39,303 bases of DNA, from positions 1-39,303 of IMG/VR virus record IMGVR_UViG_3300018876_000039; one strand, given 5' to 3'. The notes under the pieces are model-generated. The model did no database searches, was not told where the DNA came from, and worked only from the letters and a program-made list of their open reading frames with translations. This document shows positions 512 through 34,523 of this stretch, piece by piece. The position numbers were made by a program, and so were the translations under genes. The stretch is from a virus. Each line of letters begins with the position of its first letter. Position 1 is the stretch's first letter.

Positions 512-1009
512 ATGGCTTATTTGAAGCTAATTTTATTATTCTCCCTTCTGGCTGTGCTTGGTGGTGGGTATGCCTACCACCAGGTTACAGTATCCAATCT
601 TGAAGCGAAGAATGCCCAATTAGAGGCAAACAATCGTACACTCAAAGAAAATCAAGTCCAATTAGAGCTTGCTGTCAATACTGCGCAAGCATCTCTCAAA
701 GCAGCAGAAGAAAATGCCAAGAAACAAGGTGAGGCAATGAACAAGCTTACCTTGGCGAATAACGAGTTGGCAAAAGAGAAATCGAATTATATGAAGGTCT
801 TTAAGGACCACAACTTGACACGTCTTGCTCGTGCTAAACCGGGTATGATTGAGACGCGAATTAACAATGGAACTGAAAAAGTATTTAGGATGCTAGAAGA
901 TGATACAAAAGAACTTATGGATGCTGATGATAGCGACACTCCTGCTGACGGCATGCGACCCGAACAAGATATTCGGGACGAGAGTAACCCCAATGATGGG
1001 GCCAGATGA
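512..1009 (+). CDS. inner-membrane coiled-coil protein, candidate i-spanin (Rz-like)
   Basis: 165 aa. Residues 4-22 form one membrane segment, followed by a long Ala/Glu/Asn-rich coiled coil (about 28-95). After it comes a segment, LTRLARAKPGMIETRINNGT, that I recall from marine myovirus proteins. The tail is acidic and disordered. An N-terminal anchor plus a periplasmic coiled coil, with a lipoprotein gene starting inside the 3' end in another frame, is the Rz/Rz1 arrangement of two-component spanins, which join inner and outer membranes at lysis. The spanin role is inferred from architecture, not from family identity. Confidence 0.75.
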   Translation: MAYLKLILLFSLLAVLGGGYAYHQVTVSNLEAKNAQLEANNRTLKENQVQLELAVNTAQASLKAAEENAKKQGEAMNKLTLANNELAKEKSNYMKVFKDHNLTRLARAKPGMIETRINNGTEKVFRMLEDDTKELMDADDSDTPADGMRPEQDIRDESNPNDGAR

Positions 1010-1334
1010 TCCTGCCGATCGAAAGACCGTAGAATATAATCTATTCAAACCTAATGTGGCCATTGCTGGCCAAGAAGCCGCGCCGGTAGAAGAGGTGGCA
1101 ACCGCGCCTTCTTCTTGGAATGGTTGTATTGCCTGTCATGGTATGAAAGGTGAAGGTGGGGTCGGTCCTGCTCTTGCTGGTCAGACTGCTGATTATCTAA
1201 GACAGCGACTGAATGCATATAAGGCAGGTGAACGTGTGGGCAGACAGAGTGCCATGATGTGGAGTCAAGCCGGTATGCTTACACCTATTGACATTGATGA
1301 ATTATCGGAGTATATTAGTGAAACTTTTAAGTAG
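900..1334 (+). CDS. outer-membrane-type lipoprotein with a monohaem cytochrome c domain, nested in the upstream gene
   Basis: 144 aa; the ATG lies out of frame within the preceding gene, which it overlaps by 110 bases. Residues 1-19 are a lipoprotein signal ending LLTAC, with Cys19 as the lipidated residue and Asp at +2. A linker runs to about 70. Residues 73-144 read as a class I cytochrome c: haem motif CIACH (Cys76, Cys79, His80), then GP and LAGQTADYLRQRLNAYKAG, the pattern of the c4/c553 type, and a distal-Met region (Met119/120 or Met126) before LTPIDIDELSEYI. The nested position is that of an Rz1-like o-spanin, but a haem domain is not expected there. Haem attachment would need host Ccm machinery. 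The domain call is strong; the role is unknown. Confidence 0.85.
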   Translation: MIQKNLWMLMIATLLLTACDPNKIFGTRVTPMMGPDDPADRKTVEYNLFKPNVAIAGQEAAPVEEVATAPSSWNGCIACHGMKGEGGVGPALAGQTADYLRQRLNAYKAGERVGRQSAMMWSQAGMLTPIDIDELSEYISETFK

Positions 1335-8441: not shown

Positions 8442-8793
8442 ACCTAAAGATTACGCGATGGTCTCCACGATCAGCACCGTCAAAACTGTTTATATGGTTC
8501 CCATTGACGAAATCAGAGCAGATGCTCCAGATATTACACTCGATGATGAGTACCTCATAAATTGGATAAAAGATTCAGTTACCTGTGAAGAGGTTAAAGA
8601 TTCTGGTCAGCAATTCCTAGGCGAAAATATTATGGATGCCCATATTATCAGTGAGACCCGTGCAATGCAAATATTTGATTCGCATAATGGTGGTGCCGGT
8701 GATTGGGATCTCGAACAGAAAAAAGCCTTCCTCAAAAATTGGAAAGATCCTTATACCTGGTCTCAGAAGAATAAGAAAGATATTGAACTATGA
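8431..8793 (+). CDS. hypothetical protein, 120 aa
   Basis: Soluble and mixed in character: a beta-rich start (AMVSTISTVKTVYMVPIDEI), an acidic middle and a C-terminal part rich in Trp, Lys and Asp (GDWDLEQKKAFLKNWKDPYTW). It overlaps SHMT by four bases (ATGA), so it is probably co-translated with it. No known domain recognised. Confidence 0.75.
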   Translation: MSDRPKDYAMVSTISTVKTVYMVPIDEIRADAPDITLDDEYLINWIKDSVTCEEVKDSGQQFLGENIMDAHIISETRAMQIFDSHNGGAGDWDLEQKKAFLKNWKDPYTWSQKNKKDIEL

Positions 8794-9956
8794 CCGGGAT
8801 ACCCAAGGGAATAGACGAGAGGATTTTAGATCTGCTCGATGATGAGCGGACACGTCAGAAGTATACACTTGAATTGATCGCGTCTGAAAATTTTGCTTCC
8901 AAAGCAGTAATGCGACTCTGTGGCTCAGAGTTCACCAACAAATATGCCGAAGGATATCCTGGCAAGAGATATTATAACGGCTGCAAATATTATGATGAAA
9001 TAGAGAATCTGGCTATCGATCAACTGAAAGAGCTCTATGGTGCCGGATACGCTAACGTTCAACCCCATTCCGGCGCTAATGCCAATCTCGCAGTATTCCA
9101 AGCACTATTAAAACCAGGTGATAGAATTCTAGGTATGGATCTGGCATCTGGGGGTCATCTTACTCACGGTGCTCCTGTGACACTATCTGGTAAAGTCTAT
9201 GAGTCTTTTTCTTATGGAGTAGATAACGATGGGTGGATCGACTACGATGAGGTGCTAGAAAAGGCAGAGAATCATAGACCTCAATTAATCATCGCTGGTG
9301 CGTCTGCATACTCTCGTCAAATTGACTGGGCCAAATTCAGAGGAATCGCTGATCGAGTCGGGGCCAAATTAATGGTCGATATGGCTCATTATTCTGGCCT
9401 GATAGCTGGTAAGTGTTATGACAATCCAGTACCATATGCAGATGTCGTCACATCTACCACTCACAAAACACTTCGTGGGCCTCGGGGTGGTTTTATCTTA
9501 TGGAATGACAAAGGATTGACTAAAAAAATTAATTCAGGTGTCTTCCCCGGTACCCAAGGTGGTCCTCTAATGAATATTGTCGCTGCAAAGGCCCAGGCTT
9601 TTATTGAGGCAAATACTGATGAATTTCAAATTTATGCACGAAGAGTCATAAATAATGCTATGGAAATGTGTTCAGTTTTCAGTGATAAAGGTCTTAGAGT
9701 TTTGACTGGCGGGACCGATTCTCATATTATTTTACTTGATTTGTCTAACACCCCATATACTGGCCGAGAAGCAGCCGATATATTAGAAGATTGTGACATC
9801 ACAGTGAATAAGAATGGAATCCCCAATGATCCAAAAAGTTTCATGGAAACCTCTGGTATCCGAATAGGTACCGCAGCCGAAACCACACGAGGACACAATA
9901 CAAAATGGTTCAATGAACTGGCACTCCAAATAAGTCGAATATTATTAAAGGAGTAA
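8790..9956 (+). CDS. glyA: serine hydroxymethyltransferase
   Basis: 388 aa, slightly shorter than the usual 415-430. A PLP enzyme that converts serine and tetrahydrofolate to glycine and methylene-tetrahydrofolate, the carbon donor ThyX needs. Visible: ELIASENFASKAVM at the start, NKYAEGYPGKRYYNGC, SGANANLAV, the lysine site STTHKTLRGPRGG with Lys226, GTQGGPLMN, and the C-terminal SGIRIGTAAETTRG for carboxylate binding. All active-site regions are present, so it should be active. As ThyX returns tetrahydrofolate directly, the pair can cycle without dihydrofolate reductase. Confidence 0.95.
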   Translation: MTGIPKGIDERILDLLDDERTRQKYTLELIASENFASKAVMRLCGSEFTNKYAEGYPGKRYYNGCKYYDEIENLAIDQLKELYGAGYANVQPHSGANANLAVFQALLKPGDRILGMDLASGGHLTHGAPVTLSGKVYESFSYGVDNDGWIDYDEVLEKAENHRPQLIIAGASAYSRQIDWAKFRGIADRVGAKLMVDMAHYSGLIAGKCYDNPVPYADVVTSTTHKTLRGPRGGFILWNDKGLTKKINSGVFPGTQGGPLMNIVAAKAQAFIEANTDEFQIYARRVINNAMEMCSVFSDKGLRVLTGGTDSHIILLDLSNTPYTGREAADILEDCDITVNKNGIPNDPKSFMETSGIRIGTAAETTRGHNTKWFNELALQISRILLKE

Positions 9957-28132: not shown

Positions 28133-28340
28133 GGCATTCAAAGAGGCTGTCGCAGATACGTCTGTGGGAATGCTGACCAATATCCCCATCAATTTCATAT
28201 TGATTGCAATAGCATTCGAACAAGAGTGGTCTGCGTTCACTACCTCCATATTCCTCACCGTGACATTCACCATTCTGGCACTCTTTCGCAAAACCTTCCT
28301 TCGACTCTACTTTGAGTCCCTAAATGAAAAAAATTCATAA
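28110..28340 (+). CDS. two-helix membrane protein, DUF7220-like
   Basis: 76 aa. VADTSVGMLTNIPINFILIA is the conserved part as I recall it in phage and bacterial small membrane proteins (DUF7220-like), with a second helix SIFLTVTFTILALF and the end RKTFLRLYFE. Two membrane spans, N- and C-termini probably cytoplasmic. Role unknown; the last gene of the early small-protein run. Confidence 0.7.
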   Translation: MTYQKTLRAFKEAVADTSVGMLTNIPINFILIAIAFEQEWSAFTTSIFLTVTFTILALFRKTFLRLYFESLNEKNS

Positions 28341-28364
28341 TCCCTCAATTTTGTCTCATTTTTG

Positions 28365-28372
28365 TCTAAATA
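28365..28372 (+). promoter_or_regulatory. T4-late-like box for the outer-membrane protein
   Basis: TCTAAATA, 7 of 8. The predicted start near 28378 would place the hairpin at 28379-28396 at the very 5' end of the message. Confidence 0.5.
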
Positions 28373-28378
28373 TCTTTT

Positions 28379-28396
28379 CCGAGGTTAAAAACTCGG
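28379..28396 (+). other. stem-loop: 5' message hairpin or weak terminator
   Basis: CCGAG at 28379-28383 pairs with CTCGG at 28392-28396 around GTTAAAAA, followed by CTTTCATTTC. As a terminator it is poor because the U-run is interrupted. If the late box at 28365 is used, it becomes a 5'-terminal hairpin that could protect the message. Confidence 0.45.
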
Positions 28397-28422
28397 CTTT
28401 CATTTCAACAAAAGGAAAAAAC

Positions 28423-29055
28423 ATGAAAAATTTAAAGTTAATGCTAGTATTGGCTATGTGTTCAATCGGGATGTCTGCTCAAGCTATGGAGTTAGGCGGA
28501 TCGGTTTCTTTGGGAAGCAACTACATTTTTCGTGGGGTATCTCAGAATGCAGGTAACGCTGCAGTATCTGGTGAATTGCATGCCGTACATGAAGGTTTCT
28601 TTGCTCAGGTTTGGGCTAGTCAAGTAGATTATGGCTCAGATGTTGAGCTGGAATACGATCTCACGATTGCCAAAAACTTCAATCTTGGCGAAGATCTGAA
28701 GGTCGGTGTTGCATACATCGATTATAACTACTCATCTTTGACTGGTTTTACTGATTTCGAAGAATCAGCTTTGGATGTCGAAGAAGTAGGGTTTCAAGTA
28801 GAGTATAAGGCTATTGCAGCTCGTTACTACAAGGGCCTCGATGAAGCTCCAGATTACATGGAACTTGGTGTAGACCTGTTTGGTGTTGCTGACCTAACCG
28901 TTGGTGATTTCGATACAGTTGGTCGACACTATATGATCAGCAAGACTGTCGATGTTGAAGGTGTAGATGCTACCTTCGGCTATCGTCAATTCGAAGGTGA
29001 AGATGGTATTGCAGATGAGAAGTCTGCAGTTGTGATGCTAACTAAGAGGTTCTAA
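28423..29055 (+). CDS. TorF-family (Gcw_chp) outer-membrane beta-barrel protein
   Basis: 210 aa from ATG 28423 with AAAGGAAA upstream; an in-frame ATG at 28324 has no signal-peptide sense. Residues 1-21 are a signal peptide ending SAQA. The mature start ELGGSVSLGSNYIFRGVSQN and the alternating strands match the Gcw_chp/TorF family (PF09694, TIGR02001), and it ends in TKRF with the C-terminal Phe used by the BAM complex. Such a protein would be placed in the host outer membrane. Possible jobs are uptake of a small molecule or blocking of receptors to exclude other phages. A late box precedes it. Confidence 0.85.
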   Translation: MKNLKLMLVLAMCSIGMSAQAMELGGSVSLGSNYIFRGVSQNAGNAAVSGELHAVHEGFFAQVWASQVDYGSDVELEYDLTIAKNFNLGEDLKVGVAYIDYNYSSLTGFTDFEESALDVEEVGFQVEYKAIAARYYKGLDEAPDYMELGVDLFGVADLTVGDFDTVGRHYMISKTVDVEGVDATFGYRQFEGEDGIADEKSAVVMLTKRF

Positions 29056-29068: not shown

Positions 29069-29449
29069 ATGGCATATTCAGAAAAAGTATTAGATCATTA
29101 CGAAAACCCACGCAATGTGGGTCGCTTCGATGAAGACGATCAAGACGTGGGCACTGGCATGGTTGGTGCCCCGGCTTGTGGTGATGTAATGAGATTACAA
29201 ATTAAGGTAAATGATGATGGAATTATCGAAGATGCTAGGTTTAAAACCTACGGATGCGGAAGTGCTATCGCATCTTCCTCACTTCTTACCGAATGGGTTA
29301 AAGGTCGCAGTCTTGATGAAGCTGCAGATATTAGAAACACCGACATCGCAGAAGAACTCTGCCTCCCCCCAGTCAAAATCCACTGTAGTGTCCTTGCAGA
29401 AGATGCGATCAAAGCTGCGATAAAGGACTATCAAGACAAGCATTTATAA
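29069..29449 (+). CDS. iscU: iron-sulfur cluster scaffold protein IscU
   Basis: 126 aa, full length. IscU holds a nascent Fe-S cluster received from cysteine desulfurase IscS and passes it to target proteins. The ligands Cys37, Asp39, Cys63, His105 and Cys106 are all present (GAPACGDVM, KTYGCGSAIASS, KIHCSVLAED), as is LPPVK (99-103), which the HscA chaperone recognises in bacteria. So it should work with the host Isc system. It looks very close to gammaproteobacterial IscU from memory, suggesting recent gain from such a host. No ribosome site precedes the ATG. No iscS or hscA is in the window. Confidence 0.96.
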   Translation: MAYSEKVLDHYENPRNVGRFDEDDQDVGTGMVGAPACGDVMRLQIKVNDDGIIEDARFKTYGCGSAIASSSLLTEWVKGRSLDEAADIRNTDIAEELCLPPVKIHCSVLAEDAIKAAIKDYQDKHL

Positions 29450-29488: not shown

Positions 29489-30886
29489 ATGGCACAATGG
29501 AATAGAGATACCCAGAATTTTTACAACAAAGATACAACATGGCCAGGTCGTGGAGACTTTCAAAGCGTTGTAATCGCTGACAGGTTTGGAGCAATCACAG
29601 ATTGGAGACCAGACTTTACTTCAAAGAATCGTTTAAAAACATCTGGTGTTCAAACAATATTCTGGAATTCTTTCAGCGCGTTTGCTGATAACGATACATT
29701 CCAAACTACAAGAACTGCCGGTGGTCAAGCTTATATCAATAATAATGCAGCAGTGCCAGAATCGTTTGATCCAACAAACCCAGGCAGTGATATTATCGTA
29801 GAAAAATCTGTGATCATGCGAGTCACTTCAATTGGTGATAAGGTTGTCCGACAATCTCGACGTGTCATTCCTTACATTCCAGGTAAAGAACAGTTTGCCT
29901 CAATGGCAATTAGATTCGAACCAAGAACAGTTGGTATCCGCAGACGCATTGGTACATTCGACGACCAAAACGGAATGTACTTTGAAGACAGTGGTGATAA
30001 CTATTTTTGCTGTATTCGTAAGAATGGAGTTGAAACTACTCGGATCAGTCGTGAAAACTGGAACGGTGATAAACTAGATGGTACCGGCCGTAGCGGTATA
30101 ACATTCGATTTTGCTAAACAGCAATTGCTTTGTATTGAATACGAATGGTATGGCACGGGTATGACTCGTTTTGGTTTTGCTATTGATAATGAATTACATA
30201 TAATTCATACGGTCTATAACGCGAATAATACTCAAGGCACTTGGACCAAGACTCCTAATTTGCCAGTTCGGTTTGAATTAGAAGCTCTACCTGAATACAC
30301 TGATAATATTGATCATTTCTTATTTCAATCCTCAACATCAGTTGTTGCTGAAGGTGGTGTTGAAGAGCTCGGTGTATTAAATAACTCATTATCAGCAATT
30401 AATACGTCGACAAATCCACCCACAATGACCGTGGGTTCTGGTAATCTTGCAGTGGCAAACACCTTCTATCCTCTACTGAGTATTCGATTGAAGGATGCAG
30501 CTCTTGATTCTTATGTTGCTCCTCAGGCGTTTCAAGTTTTCACCGAAGATGACTCAGGTGTGTATTTTGTCGTTGTTCGTAATGGGACATTGACTGGTGC
30601 TACATTTAGTATTTTAGATGCGGATTGGGTCGGTGCCGAATTAGATGACGCGGCAACATCAATCGATTTTGGCCGAGATGATATCATCTATTCGGGCTAT
30701 TTTGCTGGTGGCGCGGCTCCAATTAATATGCCAATCAGCGCTCAATTGCAATTGGGTCGTGTATTCACTAACCCAGGTTCACCAGATTTTGCAGATTTGA
30801 CTTCAGATGTATATACAATTTGCGCGGCAAGTAAGGTAGGCGGCAAAACTGGTTTTGCATCTATTACCTGGTTAGAACAACCGTAA
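29489..30886 (+). CDS. phage structural protein, fibre or decoration type
   Basis: 465 aa. The central part, from IRRRIGTFDDQNGMYFEDSG and WNGDKLDGTGRSGITFDFAK to QLLCIEYEWYGTGMTRFGFA and TPNLPVRFELEA, is a block I recall in structural proteins of cyanophages and other marine phages. Few Lys, many Thr, Asn, Gly and aromatic residues, beta-rich, no signal peptide. A perfect late promoter fits a virion protein. Residues about 315-465 look like a second beta domain. Exact location in the particle is unknown. Confidence 0.8.
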   Translation: MAQWNRDTQNFYNKDTTWPGRGDFQSVVIADRFGAITDWRPDFTSKNRLKTSGVQTIFWNSFSAFADNDTFQTTRTAGGQAYINNNAAVPESFDPTNPGSDIIVEKSVIMRVTSIGDKVVRQSRRVIPYIPGKEQFASMAIRFEPRTVGIRRRIGTFDDQNGMYFEDSGDNYFCCIRKNGVETTRISRENWNGDKLDGTGRSGITFDFAKQQLLCIEYEWYGTGMTRFGFAIDNELHIIHTVYNANNTQGTWTKTPNLPVRFELEALPEYTDNIDHFLFQSSTSVVAEGGVEELGVLNNSLSAINTSTNPPTMTVGSGNLAVANTFYPLLSIRLKDAALDSYVAPQAFQVFTEDDSGVYFVVVRNGTLTGATFSILDADWVGAELDDAATSIDFGRDDIIYSGYFAGGAAPINMPISAQLQLGRVFTNPGSPDFADLTSDVYTICAASKVGGKTGFASITWLEQP

Positions 30887-31268: not shown

Positions 31269-31844
31269 ATGCGAATCTTATTATTAGTTTTTGGATTTTG
31301 TTTTATTGTTTTTGCAAATGCGGAAGAAACTACAACTACCGATACAACAGTACCTGATGATACCATCAGAACTGAATCGATAACTGATAGTACAGTGACG
31401 ACAAACTCTACAACATCGACGACACTCAAGTCGCCTCCCGCATCGGCAATTACGCCAACAATAAACACATCCAACTCTGATCTTTGTACATTTGGTGTTG
31501 CTGGGGCAATCCAAACACAGATACTTGGTATCTCGACTGGAACCCAGGTCACAGATGAAAACTGCGAGCGTCTAAAGCTCTCAAAAACATTATATGATAT
31601 GGGTATGAAGGTTGCAGCTGTATCTACGTTATGTCAAGACCGAAGAGTCTTCGATGCTATGATGATGGCGGGTACTCCCTGTCCTTATGATGGTAAGATA
31701 GGACTCGAGGCAAAGGAGGCATGGTCATTAGATGAAGATCTAAAGCCCGTGTTAAACAAAGACGATAAGGAGATGAGCGATGGTACTAAGACACTTTTGG
31801 GTGGCGCTGGCGTTGCTAGTTTGCTCATCCTACTCTTACTCTAA
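31269..31844 (+). CDS. secreted Thr-rich, Cys-containing protein with C-terminal anchor
   Basis: 191 aa. Signal peptide 1-18 (ending FANA), then a Thr/Ser-rich linker (about 20-60) likely disordered. The conserved core DLCTFGVAGAIQTQILGIST, TDENCERLKLSKTLYDMGMK and VAAVSTLCQDRRVFDAMMMA, with cysteines in DLC, ENC, TLC and TPC, is one I recall in cyanophages. GAGVASLLILLLL forms a C-terminal membrane segment. Periplasmic, perhaps disulfide-bonded, anchored at the end. Overlaps the next gene by 65 bases. Confidence 0.78.
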   Translation: MRILLLVFGFCFIVFANAEETTTTDTTVPDDTIRTESITDSTVTTNSTTSTTLKSPPASAITPTINTSNSDLCTFGVAGAIQTQILGISTGTQVTDENCERLKLSKTLYDMGMKVAAVSTLCQDRRVFDAMMMAGTPCPYDGKIGLEAKEAWSLDEDLKPVLNKDDKEMSDGTKTLLGGAGVASLLILLLL

Positions 31845-32661
31845 TCCAGACATAGCTCCTCAATACGGCACTACATCAAATGCAGCTCAGTTTGGGTTAA
31901 ACTGGGTTATGACAAATGTGCTACCGCAACAAGCAGGCCTGAGAGTCAATCAGGTCACATATCAATATACCGTAGTCAAAAACCAAGAAGATTATTTGCT
32001 CGTGCACGTGCAGAACGAAAACGCACGAGGAGCGGGTTATATCTTTAGAGAAACAGATGACTGGACTGGATTGCCTGGTAATACGATTACTAAGGTCGTT
32101 CCGATTGTTGACGGTATCGACATATCCTATTGGGGAAGGGGATCAATCGAACCCGAAGGTTTTGGAACAGTTCAAAGTCCAGAAGTATATTACACATATT
32201 CTTATGATCCTTGCTTTGACCCACAAACGAATCCAGAATGCCCTGGTTATATTGACCCATTTGTGGTTGATCTAACCGAGGTAGAAGTAATTGATCCACT
32301 CGATGAGGACTATGTTCAAGACGAGTTGGATCGTAAAGCCAATCTAAGGCAACAGAAAGAAGACGAGAAAGAGAAAGCTCGAAAGAAAGCTTTAGAACAA
32401 GTAGAAGAAATCGATGAGCTCTTGGAAAACATTCTCGGTATCTCTGAACAGAGTGAGTTCTCTATGGAACAAATTCTGATGCATCAGCAGATGATCGCGA
32501 GTTTACCAATGAGTTATCAAAGAGCTCTCGTTGGTGGGGAGTATCCTGAAGGAGTGGTCTTGAAGGATGCAAAACTTCCCAACAACACTAGAGGGTTGAG
32601 AGTGGGCATGGCGCAAGAGTTATTGCACCAACAGATGATTATGCTACAATATGCCAAATAA
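31780..32661 (+). CDS. secreted protein with beta domain and coiled coil
   Basis: 293 aa; AAGGAG lies seven bases before the ATG although the start is inside the preceding gene. A signal peptide covers about 1-21. The beta-rich part has GYIFRETDDWTGLPGNTITK, YWGRGSIEPEG and a CFDPQTNPECPGYIDPF segment with two cysteines. Then an acidic/basic coiled coil (about 178-215) and a Met/Gln-rich tail follow. Part of the conserved secretory cassette; function unknown. Confidence 0.78.
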   Translation: MVLRHFWVALALLVCSSYSYSNPDIAPQYGTTSNAAQFGLNWVMTNVLPQQAGLRVNQVTYQYTVVKNQEDYLLVHVQNENARGAGYIFRETDDWTGLPGNTITKVVPIVDGIDISYWGRGSIEPEGFGTVQSPEVYYTYSYDPCFDPQTNPECPGYIDPFVVDLTEVEVIDPLDEDYVQDELDRKANLRQQKEDEKEKARKKALEQVEEIDELLENILGISEQSEFSMEQILMHQQMIASLPMSYQRALVGGEYPEGVVLKDAKLPNNTRGLRVGMAQELLHQQMIMLQYAK

Positions 32662-32682
32662 AACTCATAAAGGGAGAACAAC

Positions 32683-33186
32683 ATGTTCAATAAAACACTT
32701 ATATCATGTGTTGCACTCGCGTCCTTTTGTTTTTCGGCTATGGCAGAAGAGATCCCCGTTACTGGTAACGTGGCCTCTAAATGCGTTGTGACACAGGACA
32801 CGCTGGGTGTGTATGGTAACCCATCCGCATCAAAGTTGAGCACTAAGCCAGATGACGGTGGTATTCACCCAGTCGTAAGGTACGATGTAGTACAAGCAAG
32901 CTATTATAAGGCTCGCATTACTGCACCGGATGCTTTTACATCAAGTCCTGAGCTGAACGACACTGTAGCTTGGAGTAACTGGGTAACAGTTGACCAAGTT
33001 TCAGACGCGACAATGTCATCGTATGATACCGATAAGATATACTACGATAATATCACAGAAGTAGCTTTGACTGTAGCAGGTTCAACCTGGTTTAAGATTC
33101 AGTCTGAAGCTGATTATGGATATGACAAAGCGTTTCCTGGCGGTCAGTACCAGGCTTCTGTAACTGCAGAATGCATCGCAATTTAA
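32683..33186 (+). CDS. secreted beta-sandwich-like protein
   Basis: 167 aa, GGGAG upstream. Signal peptide 1-21 ending SAMA. The mature chain has TGNVASKCVVTQDTLGVYGN, GIHPVVRYDVVQASYYKARI, and the end YQASVTAECIAI; two cysteines near the ends could form one disulfide, as in pilin-like or immunoglobulin-like folds. The opening GNV.SKC resembles fimbrial-type beginnings but no strand-exchange motif is clear. Likely periplasmic or exposed; unknown function. Confidence 0.78.
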   Translation: MFNKTLISCVALASFCFSAMAEEIPVTGNVASKCVVTQDTLGVYGNPSASKLSTKPDDGGIHPVVRYDVVQASYYKARITAPDAFTSSPELNDTVAWSNWVTVDQVSDATMSSYDTDKIYYDNITEVALTVAGSTWFKIQSEADYGYDKAFPGGQYQASVTAECIAI

Positions 33187-33208
33187 AGGTAAAAGGGATC
33201 GAAATCTA

Positions 33209-33589
33209 ATGCGTTATATTATGCTATTAATTATGCTAGGGATTGGTGGGCAGACTGCTTCTGCCCACGAATTCCTTCCAACCTATCCAAGGTTGCAATT
33301 ATCGTATGTGCCAGGTGTTTTACATACGGAGATGGAACTGTTTAATAAGCGAGAAGATATTCAATATTATGAATTTAGTGTGTGGACGGAAGACTGGAAA
33401 AAGGTTCCGTTTGCCACTACTGAAAAAATTCAGCAGATTGATTATCTTGAGAAAAAAAGAATCGACATATACATACGTGAGAAAGATAAACATAAGGCAG
33501 TCTATATTTGCTCTAAGAGTAAATTATTGAAAGCTGACGTGAGTCGAGCCACGATTGCATCGAGGATTTGTTCAAAGATAAAAGATTAA
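33209..33589 (+). CDS. secreted protein, 126 aa
   Basis: Signal peptide 1-19 (ending TASA, then HEFLP). PTYPRLQLSYVPGVLHTEME, LFNKREDIQYYEFSVW and KAVYICSKSKLL recall a small family in cyanophages. The start HEFxPTYP and beta-rich build are like periplasmic chaperone N-domains (the KREDIQYYEFSVW strand), so a pilus-chaperone-like role is imaginable, not shown. Two cysteines may pair. Confidence 0.76.
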   Translation: MRYIMLLIMLGIGGQTASAHEFLPTYPRLQLSYVPGVLHTEMELFNKREDIQYYEFSVWTEDWKKVPFATTEKIQQIDYLEKKRIDIYIREKDKHKAVYICSKSKLLKADVSRATIASRICSKIKD

Positions 33590-33592
33590 ATT

Positions 33593-34045
33593 ATGCGAAT
33601 TTTTGTTATTCTAATATTGATGATAGTGACACAAGGGGTAAGGGCCCAGTCGAGTTCAGTGAACTTAGCATTGCCCAATTCACCTGGTAGTTACGCATCT
33701 GATCGTGTAAGATCTGGACAGTTTGAATGCCAGAATGCTATTGGTGGTGCAACCACTATGGAATTCGGAGTTGTAGGTATTCTTAATCAGAACGGTCCGT
33801 ACGATAATGGGTTTGGTAGTAGTACTACCTACATTAACCCAGATGGTTGGAATCAAAACGATTTTGTAAGGGATGTTGGTGTTTATGCAAAACTTACAAT
33901 ACCGTTAGATAAACCAAAAGAGCGTATTAATTGCAATACACTCTATAAACTTGAACTTGAAAGGAGAAGATTGGAGATCCAGAAACTTCAACAAGAAGTC
34001 GCAAATCTGAAAGCTCTACAGTTTGAAGACGATAGCGACGACTAG
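33593..34045 (+). CDS. secreted protein with C-terminal coiled coil
   Basis: 150 aa, three bases after the previous stop. Signal peptide 1-18 ending VRA. Mature beta part: SVNLALPNSPGSY, RVRSGQFECQNAIGGATTME and FGVVGIL, then DVGVYAKLTIPLDKPKERIN with a second Cys, then a helix LYKLELERRRLEIQKLQQEV and an acidic end. I recall homologues in the same gene order in cyanophages. Likely an oligomeric envelope component. Confidence 0.76.
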   Translation: MRIFVILILMIVTQGVRAQSSSVNLALPNSPGSYASDRVRSGQFECQNAIGGATTMEFGVVGILNQNGPYDNGFGSSTTYINPDGWNQNDFVRDVGVYAKLTIPLDKPKERINCNTLYKLELERRRLEIQKLQQEVANLKALQFEDDSDD

Positions 34046-34064
34046 TAAAAAAGGATAGAGGAAA

Positions 34065-34523
34065 ATGGCAGAAGTTGAATTTGGGGGCATGACCTTCAAA
34101 GGCGGGAAGATGATGATTCTTCTCACTGCGTTAAGTACTCTGGGTGGAGCCAGTTGGGGAGTCTTTGAGTTCTATAAAGATTATATGGATATGAAGGAGA
34201 TCATCCAGAATATTGATGTAGGAGAAATTGAGGCACGTAATAACGTTATCGAGACTAAGCTCGATGAAGCGATCGATTATTCGAGAAGCATTAAGAACGA
34301 TCTGAGAGATGACTTCAATCGGATGGAAAAGAATGTAGATCGAATTGAAGACCAGAATCGAGAGATGGAAGATAAGGTTAAAGATATGATTGACCGTGCT
34401 TCAGAGAGATTTGATACAAAGAGGGAAAGTCTACAGACCGACACTCGTTTACAAATTGAAGCGTTAGATGACCGCTTGAACAAGAAAATTCAACAGGTGC
34501 TTGACAATCCTCTAGCCGATTAA
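34065..34523 (+). CDS. membrane-anchored coiled-coil protein
   Basis: 152 aa, GAGG upstream. GGKMMILLTALSTLGGASWG (about 13-32) is a membrane segment. Residues 45-150 are charged helix with many heptads (DEAIDYSRSIKNDLRDDFNR, KVKDMIDRASERF), a long rod. A bitopic protein that could span part of the periplasm; resembles the 1832-2344 protein in plan but with the anchor at the other end. Between the secreted proteins and the small paralogues. Confidence 0.74.
   Translation: MAEVEFGGMTFKGGKMMILLTALSTLGGASWGVFEFYKDYMDMKEIIQNIDVGEIEARNNVIETKLDEAIDYSRSIKNDLRDDFNRMEKNVDRIEDQNREMEDKVKDMIDRASERFDTKRESLQTDTRLQIEALDDRLNKKIQQVLDNPLAD

Follow-up and report, generated by a model that had tools for sequence, protein, structure and literature searches.

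A predicted c-type cytochrome lipoprotein gene between the two spanin genes of a marine T4-like phage

Cyanophages carry electron-transport auxiliary genes, namely, those for the terminal oxidase PTOX and for photosystem proteins (PMC5082946). These phage genes are thought to sustain host electron transport, as is proposed here for a phage gene of another kind; the cyanophage genes act in photosynthesis, whereas the present gene encodes a predicted respiratory-type haem c carrier. Cytochrome carriers were not observed in the denitrification phages of PMC8115048, and reads of cbb3 oxidase were reported in viral fractions (PMC3474794). In the full text of open-licence papers, where absence is not proof, no description of a phage cytochrome c carrier was found.

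Among solved structures, small c-type cytochromes such as Thioalkalivibrio c546/556 (8yts), P. nautica c552 (1cno), and Vibrio c554 (2zzs), together with the c4 family, share the fold, the CxxCH motif, and the distal Met of the protein described here, and structural alignments give the three small ones 38-42% identity to its haem domain. It differs from them in being phage-encoded and predicted to be lipid-anchored through a conserved tether. The lysis genes on both sides resemble the two-component spanins PseT.3/PseT.2 of T4, a pair of the "separated" type (PMC6139136). The pair described here has a cytochrome gene between its members, while that of sister phages is "overlapped".

The window, i.e., the whole stretch of DNA analysed, comprises 39,303 nucleotides (IMG/VR record IMGVR_UViG_3300018876_000039). 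The features of the cassette are as follows:

512-1009, + strand: i-spanin gene, T4 PseT.3-like, with N-terminal TM anchor and periplasmic coiled coil (phrog_739, Rz-like spanin, 4.8e-13)
900-1334, + strand: c-type cytochrome lipoprotein gene, 144 aa, ATG start
900-956, + strand: cytochrome signal peptide MIQKNLWMLMIATLLLTA, followed by Cys19; homologous to the o-spanin signal peptide of sister phages that lack the cytochrome
957-1124, + strand: tether of low predicted order, with a conserved DPNK[IV]FGTRVTP motif and a VEYxLFxPxVAIAG segment
1125-1139, + strand: haem attachment motif CIACH, residues 76-80
1257-1259, + strand: Met120 (in MMWSQA), probable distal haem ligand
1306-1310, + strand: Shine-Dalgarno-like CGGAG, internal to the cytochrome gene and 7 nt upstream of the GTG of the o-spanin
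1318-1752, + strand: o-spanin gene, T4 PseT.2-like (phrog_812, Rz-like spanin, 6.1e-14), with a different signal peptide, VKLLSSVIIVALLQG, followed by Cys
952-1450, + strand: foreign segment; identical to sister contig L009 up to 951, right edge approximate

By its sequence, the product of 900-1334 is a lipoprotein whose cytochrome c domain is complete; the protein is predicted to bind haem and is assigned to the small, single-haem c4/c5/c553-like class. A preliminary description of this DNA had read it as a lipoprotein nested out of frame in a coiled-coil gene, and this reading holds: the gene starts within the i-spanin gene and overlaps it by 110 nt in a different frame, so that the final ~15 i-spanin codons lie in cytochrome DNA. 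The lipobox LTA-C is found at Cys19, and ~55 residues separate this cysteine from the haem domain. The phage-made haem-type domain was likewise correctly recognized, with CIACH exactly where it had been placed. Pfam PF00034 (Cytochrom_C) matches at 1.3e-9 with 39.7 bits, above the gathering score of 21.3, which together with CxxCH and the distal Met marks a class I c-type cytochrome. A sequence search of the PDB returned cytochromes c, the best being 8yts (4e-13), while the NCBIfam search gave sub-threshold cytochrome matches only and no named subfamily. Residues C76, C79, H80, P90, M120, and Q123 are invariant in 25 homologues. The distal Met had been expected near residues 119-126; Met120 is the likely axial ligand since it is invariant, whereas Met119 varies, and phmmer pairs it with the Met of 8yts.

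The AF2 model has a haem domain with pLDDT of about 90 or more and a low-scoring tether (mean 75). Its best solved match in Foldseek is again 8yts (7.6e-6, TM 0.82 by target), followed by D. vulgaris c553, Vibrio c554, P. nautica c552, and then c4 proteins, as befits a small all-helical cytochrome c fold. Homologues in other phage lineages keep both lipobox and CxxCH. Because the profile matches and these homologues retain the two motifs, neither of the outcomes named in the preliminary description as speaking against the idea, i.e., no cytochrome profile hit or loss of CxxCH in homologues, was obtained. The haem ligands, lipobox, and Met are kept under purifying selection across independent phages and bacteria (dN/dS about 0.04-0.26, many dS values being near saturation). 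This conservation, together with the same arrangement on two further contigs from different metagenome datasets (L002 and L003), shows that the reading frame is not a chance one.

The Rz/Rz1-like arrangement perceived earlier stands in part: the lipoprotein is nested, but its role as spanin partner falls to the next gene, the true o-spanin, which had escaped notice. The o-spanin start sits out of frame in the 3' end of the cytochrome gene (17-nt overlap); it is most likely the GTG at 1318, placed 7 bases after CGGAG, with a longer ATG start at 1297 possible. On sequence grounds 1318-1752, and not the cytochrome, is the o-spanin partner of 512-1009, and the cytochrome gene is an additional one lodged between the two. 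Like PseT.3/PseT.2, the flanking genes match PHROG families of Rz-like spanins and have a TM coiled-coil/lipoprotein layout; these matches, the protein layout, and the T4-like genome suggest a T4-type pair. The i-spanin is 84-93% identical across many marine phage contigs, and the o-spanin is 74-88% identical to those of phages lacking the cytochrome. The cytochrome product has no PHROGs match at E<=0.1, hence no sequence relation to an o-spanin family there, and no spanin features except a borrowed signal peptide. Its o-spanin-type traits, namely, the lipoprotein signal peptide and the i-spanin overlap, are present but inherited from the displaced o-spanin. The likeness of the nested start to Rz1 stems from a takeover by the cytochrome, whose start and signal peptide were ancestrally those of the o-spanin. 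On L002, an endolysin gene lies upstream. The T4 late-promoter motif TATAAATA occurs five times in the window, which is not above chance, and none of these is near the cassette; no tRNA genes were found in the window.

The takeover can be traced by comparison with sister phages. Among 80 IMG/VR o-spanin loci, a cytochrome lies between the spanins only in the window's phage (L080/L081 being contigs of L002/L003); the other 78 loci were fetched and contain none, L082 matching through its signal peptide only. Similarly, sister phage records that share these spanins, with lengths reaching 155 kb, show no cytochrome and at most a match to the signal peptide. In most of the distinct o-spanin loci listed, the o-spanin starts within the i-spanin (LE[DN]DTKELMD) with M[IT][QR]KNLW. 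The o-spanin signal peptide of L009, MIQKNLWMLMIATLLLTGC, is the counterpart of the cytochrome signal peptide in the window; the two sequences share a 92-nt identical run ending at the lipobox, after which L009 runs straight into the o-spanin. In the window, the ancestral ATG and signal peptide lead into the cytochrome instead, and a new signal peptide precedes the o-spanin, by which its export would be maintained. The foreign segment thus contains the cytochrome, the new signal peptide of the o-spanin, and roughly the initial 60-90 nt of an L156/L158-like mature o-spanin. Over its first 60 nt, the mature o-spanin sequence resembles the L156/L158 type most (88-90%), and over the remainder L009 (87%). 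An insertion that simply split an L009-like o-spanin was considered and revised to a longer incoming segment, since the early mature o-spanin differs from L009 and resembles L156/L158. The simplest reading of these sequences is that recombination introduced a single segment with the cytochrome, the new signal peptide, and the beginning of the mature o-spanin. Donation of the signal peptide by bacteria to phages was ruled out: the same start and signal peptide are found in most distinct cytochrome-less phage loci listed, where the i-spanin frame is conserved.

The i-/o-spanin junction also appears to accept other cargo, since three loci of another phage (L083-L085) hold a 192-aa methyltransferase-like gene there (PF08242, below cut-off), with yet another o-spanin signal peptide:

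L084:1912-2490: methyltransferase-like gene at the spanin junction, also in L083 and L085

The lipoprotein cytochrome is also present in two other phage lineages, i.e., L004-L006 (about 67-70% identity) and L007-L008 (59%), and a rescan with the six-member alignment revealed no further lineage. Their signal peptides differ from that of the window, while the CDPNK[IV]FGTRVTP tether, lipobox, and haem site are kept. L004, L005, and L006 adjoin serine hydroxymethyltransferase and redoxin genes, L007 and L008 are located elsewhere, and none lies beside spanins; the L004 contig also holds a spanin pair (L159), about 30 kb from its cytochrome. The window itself encodes a serine hydroxymethyltransferase (8790-9956; PF00464, 8e-149), and a similar gene is directly upstream of the L004 cytochrome.

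More distant phage c-cytochromes (L010-L044) have a TM-like segment at the N terminus and conserve a C-x3-C motif. In 24 IMG/VR loci (L016-L028, L030, L032-L034, and L037-L043), TM-anchored c-cytochromes with CHGMKGEGGIGP lie between nrdA and nrdB, in the ribonucleotide reductase operon of nucleotide metabolism; this figure is not a count of independent events, since several contigs are near-identical. The L010 cytochrome lies between nrdB and glutaredoxin, and the contig of L013, a further member of the nrd-linked set, has a T4-like primase. These nrdA/nrdB-linked cytochromes apparently form a separate, undescribed class of phage genes. PHROGs has no family for the lipoprotein or nrd-linked cytochromes (L013 gave a partial match of 0.0089 only). 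Tblastn searches of 50,697 phage records with the cytochrome, two nrd-linked cytochromes, a Halieaceae cytochrome, and a SAR86 c4 found no credible match, and a fold search of viral predicted structures in BFVD found none at E<=0.001. Three loci filed as bacterial genomes (L062, L063, and L066) were left out of the host copies because they lie in phage-like nrdB-cytochrome-glutaredoxin blocks; their contigs, filed under Planctomycetaceae, Sphingobacteriales, and Synechococcus MAGs, resemble phage contigs binned into bacteria.

Elsewhere, the window encodes an IscU/NifU N-terminal scaffold protein (29069-29449; PF01592, 1.1e-54), cargo that is unusual in a T4-like phage, and an IscU-like gene is also present near the L010 cytochrome. 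A Gcw_chp family protein (28324-29055; PF09694, 5.5e-11), from a bacterial family of unknown function, has a signal-peptide-like stretch. A run of about six small proteins, secreted or membrane-associated, that match families poorly or not at all is encoded at 31269-34523, near a virion structural protein (29489-30886, phrog_1645).

Full-length copies of the lipoprotein cytochrome were also identified in three gammaproteobacterial MAGs, 57-60% identical to the window and 85-87% among themselves:

L045:3001-3420, L046:3001-3420, and L047:3001-3420: bacterial cytochrome copies, with a decayed i-spanin frame upstream

These copies bear the spanin-type signal peptide (MIRKNLWVL in L046). The 60 nt before the L046 ATG match phage i-spanin DNA in register (42/60 with L093, compared with a mean of 17 in shuffles; p is about 5e-5, the lowest value that the test can give), with weaker matches in L047 (34/60) and L045 (31/60); beyond this remnant the i-spanin is absent. 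A copy is found in 3 of 207 genomes of the family. Those of L046 and L047 follow a tRNA-Cys gene; this site is unoccupied in four further members of the genus and also in the L045 genome, which carries its copy at another position. The flanks resemble ordinary chromosomal genes, and dN/dS is 0.04-0.08, indicating strong purifying selection. In the tree, the bacterial copies group with phage L007 (89/89) and fall within the phage clade (94/93); among cellular sequences, Halieaceae cytochromes stand closest to this clade (88/88). The upstream remnant, limited occurrence, and nesting in the phage clade argue that bacteria acquired the gene from the spanin cassette of a phage; tree support is moderate and the bacterial genomes are MAGs. 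The small cytochromes of Halieaceae and SAR86 (L067, L072, L048, and others) have haem domains 40-58% identical to that of the window, and their VCVAGQDC before this domain aligns with the phage VAIAGQEA; however, they are without the lipobox and have two extra Cys that the phage lipoprotein lacks.

The location of the protein was considered from the residue after Cys19, which is Asp (CDPN) in all six lipoprotein members. Asp at +2 is the classical inner-membrane retention residue, a rule that is weak outside enterobacteria, e.g., in Pseudomonas (PMC6469965). By this E. coli rule, the inner membrane would be more likely than the outer, and the outer-membrane cytochrome of the preliminary description appears doubtful.

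The gene is of a host type in a genuine viral genome, as expected of an auxiliary gene: spanins, a gp61-like primase, and other phage genes flank it, and it recurs on several virus contigs. Its product is, with slight preference, taken to be a membrane-tethered electron carrier, making the gene an auxiliary metabolic (cargo) gene in a lysis cassette rather than a spanin. The precursor would be exported via Sec, lipidated at Cys19, and loaded with haem by the host Ccm system; the flexible arm would tether the haem domain at the periplasmic face, where it could accept electrons from host cytochrome bc1/c4 and deliver them to cbb3 or other terminal oxidases. Such shuttling may let respiration and ATP supply go on while host proteins are no longer replaced. 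The intact haem ligands, the non-spanin occurrences, the nrd-linked cousins, and the SAR86 homologue beside c4/dsbA favour a respiratory carrier. A gene placed in the lysis cassette may be expressed late, and such timing would suit an energy-supply role less than the setting of the nrd-linked copies does.

Small c-cytochromes are electron donors to several enzymes, and the L004 copies lie two genes from a redoxin, so that a periplasmic redox defence or signalling role (handling peroxide or NO, or donating to a peroxidase) might be envisaged instead of oxidase feeding. This is unlikely, though to be kept in view: no peroxidase or NO-reductase partner was identified, and the SAR86 copy lies after the genes for cytochrome c4 and dsbA, a setting typical of respiratory carriers. 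That the gene is a neutral passenger, gained by recombination and without benefit to the phage, is decidedly unlikely. The spanin-cassette form does occur in one phage lineage only, but pN is far below pS among the window, L004, and L007 lineages (0.23-0.31 against 0.70-0.84, with dS near saturation), which points to likely purifying selection, and the haem ligands and tether motif are invariant.

A haem spanin, in which the cytochrome joins the spanin complex, helps to disrupt the outer membrane, or takes part in redox stress during lysis, was raised in the preliminary description and is very improbable. The gene does sit between the i- and o-spanin, overlapping both, with the ancestral o-spanin start and signal peptide; against this, a full PseT.3/PseT.2-like pair exists besides it, the 78 other o-spanin loci do without it, its homologues in other phages are away from spanins, and bacteria retain it under strong purifying selection without working spanins. 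None of the observations calls for a part in lysis. An assembly chimera of phage and bacterial DNA is hardly credible: all contigs are metagenomic and the mosaic edges are sharp, but L002 and L003 repeat the arrangement, the overlapping frames are open on either side, and the bacterial copies carry the i-spanin remnant in the matching position, so the phage/cytochrome junction exists independently.

The locus shows how overlapping lysis genes can take up cargo, with the export signal exchanged at the lipobox and both spanins retained, and the decayed i-spanin frame upstream of the bacterial copies is an unusually clear trace of a phage gene turned cellular. It is reasonably probable that marine T4-like phages carry an unrecognised class of respiratory c-cytochrome auxiliary genes, comprising lipid-anchored (window, L004, and L007) and TM-anchored nrd-linked forms, one of which would have entered a spanin cassette through the o-spanin start and signal peptide and then passed from such a cassette to Gammaproteobacteria, which retain it as a gene of their own. 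A respiratory cytochrome c carrier, if true, would extend phage electron-transport genes from photosynthesis to heterotrophic marine bacteria, and the question of whether lytic phages prop up host respiration would become testable through one small protein.
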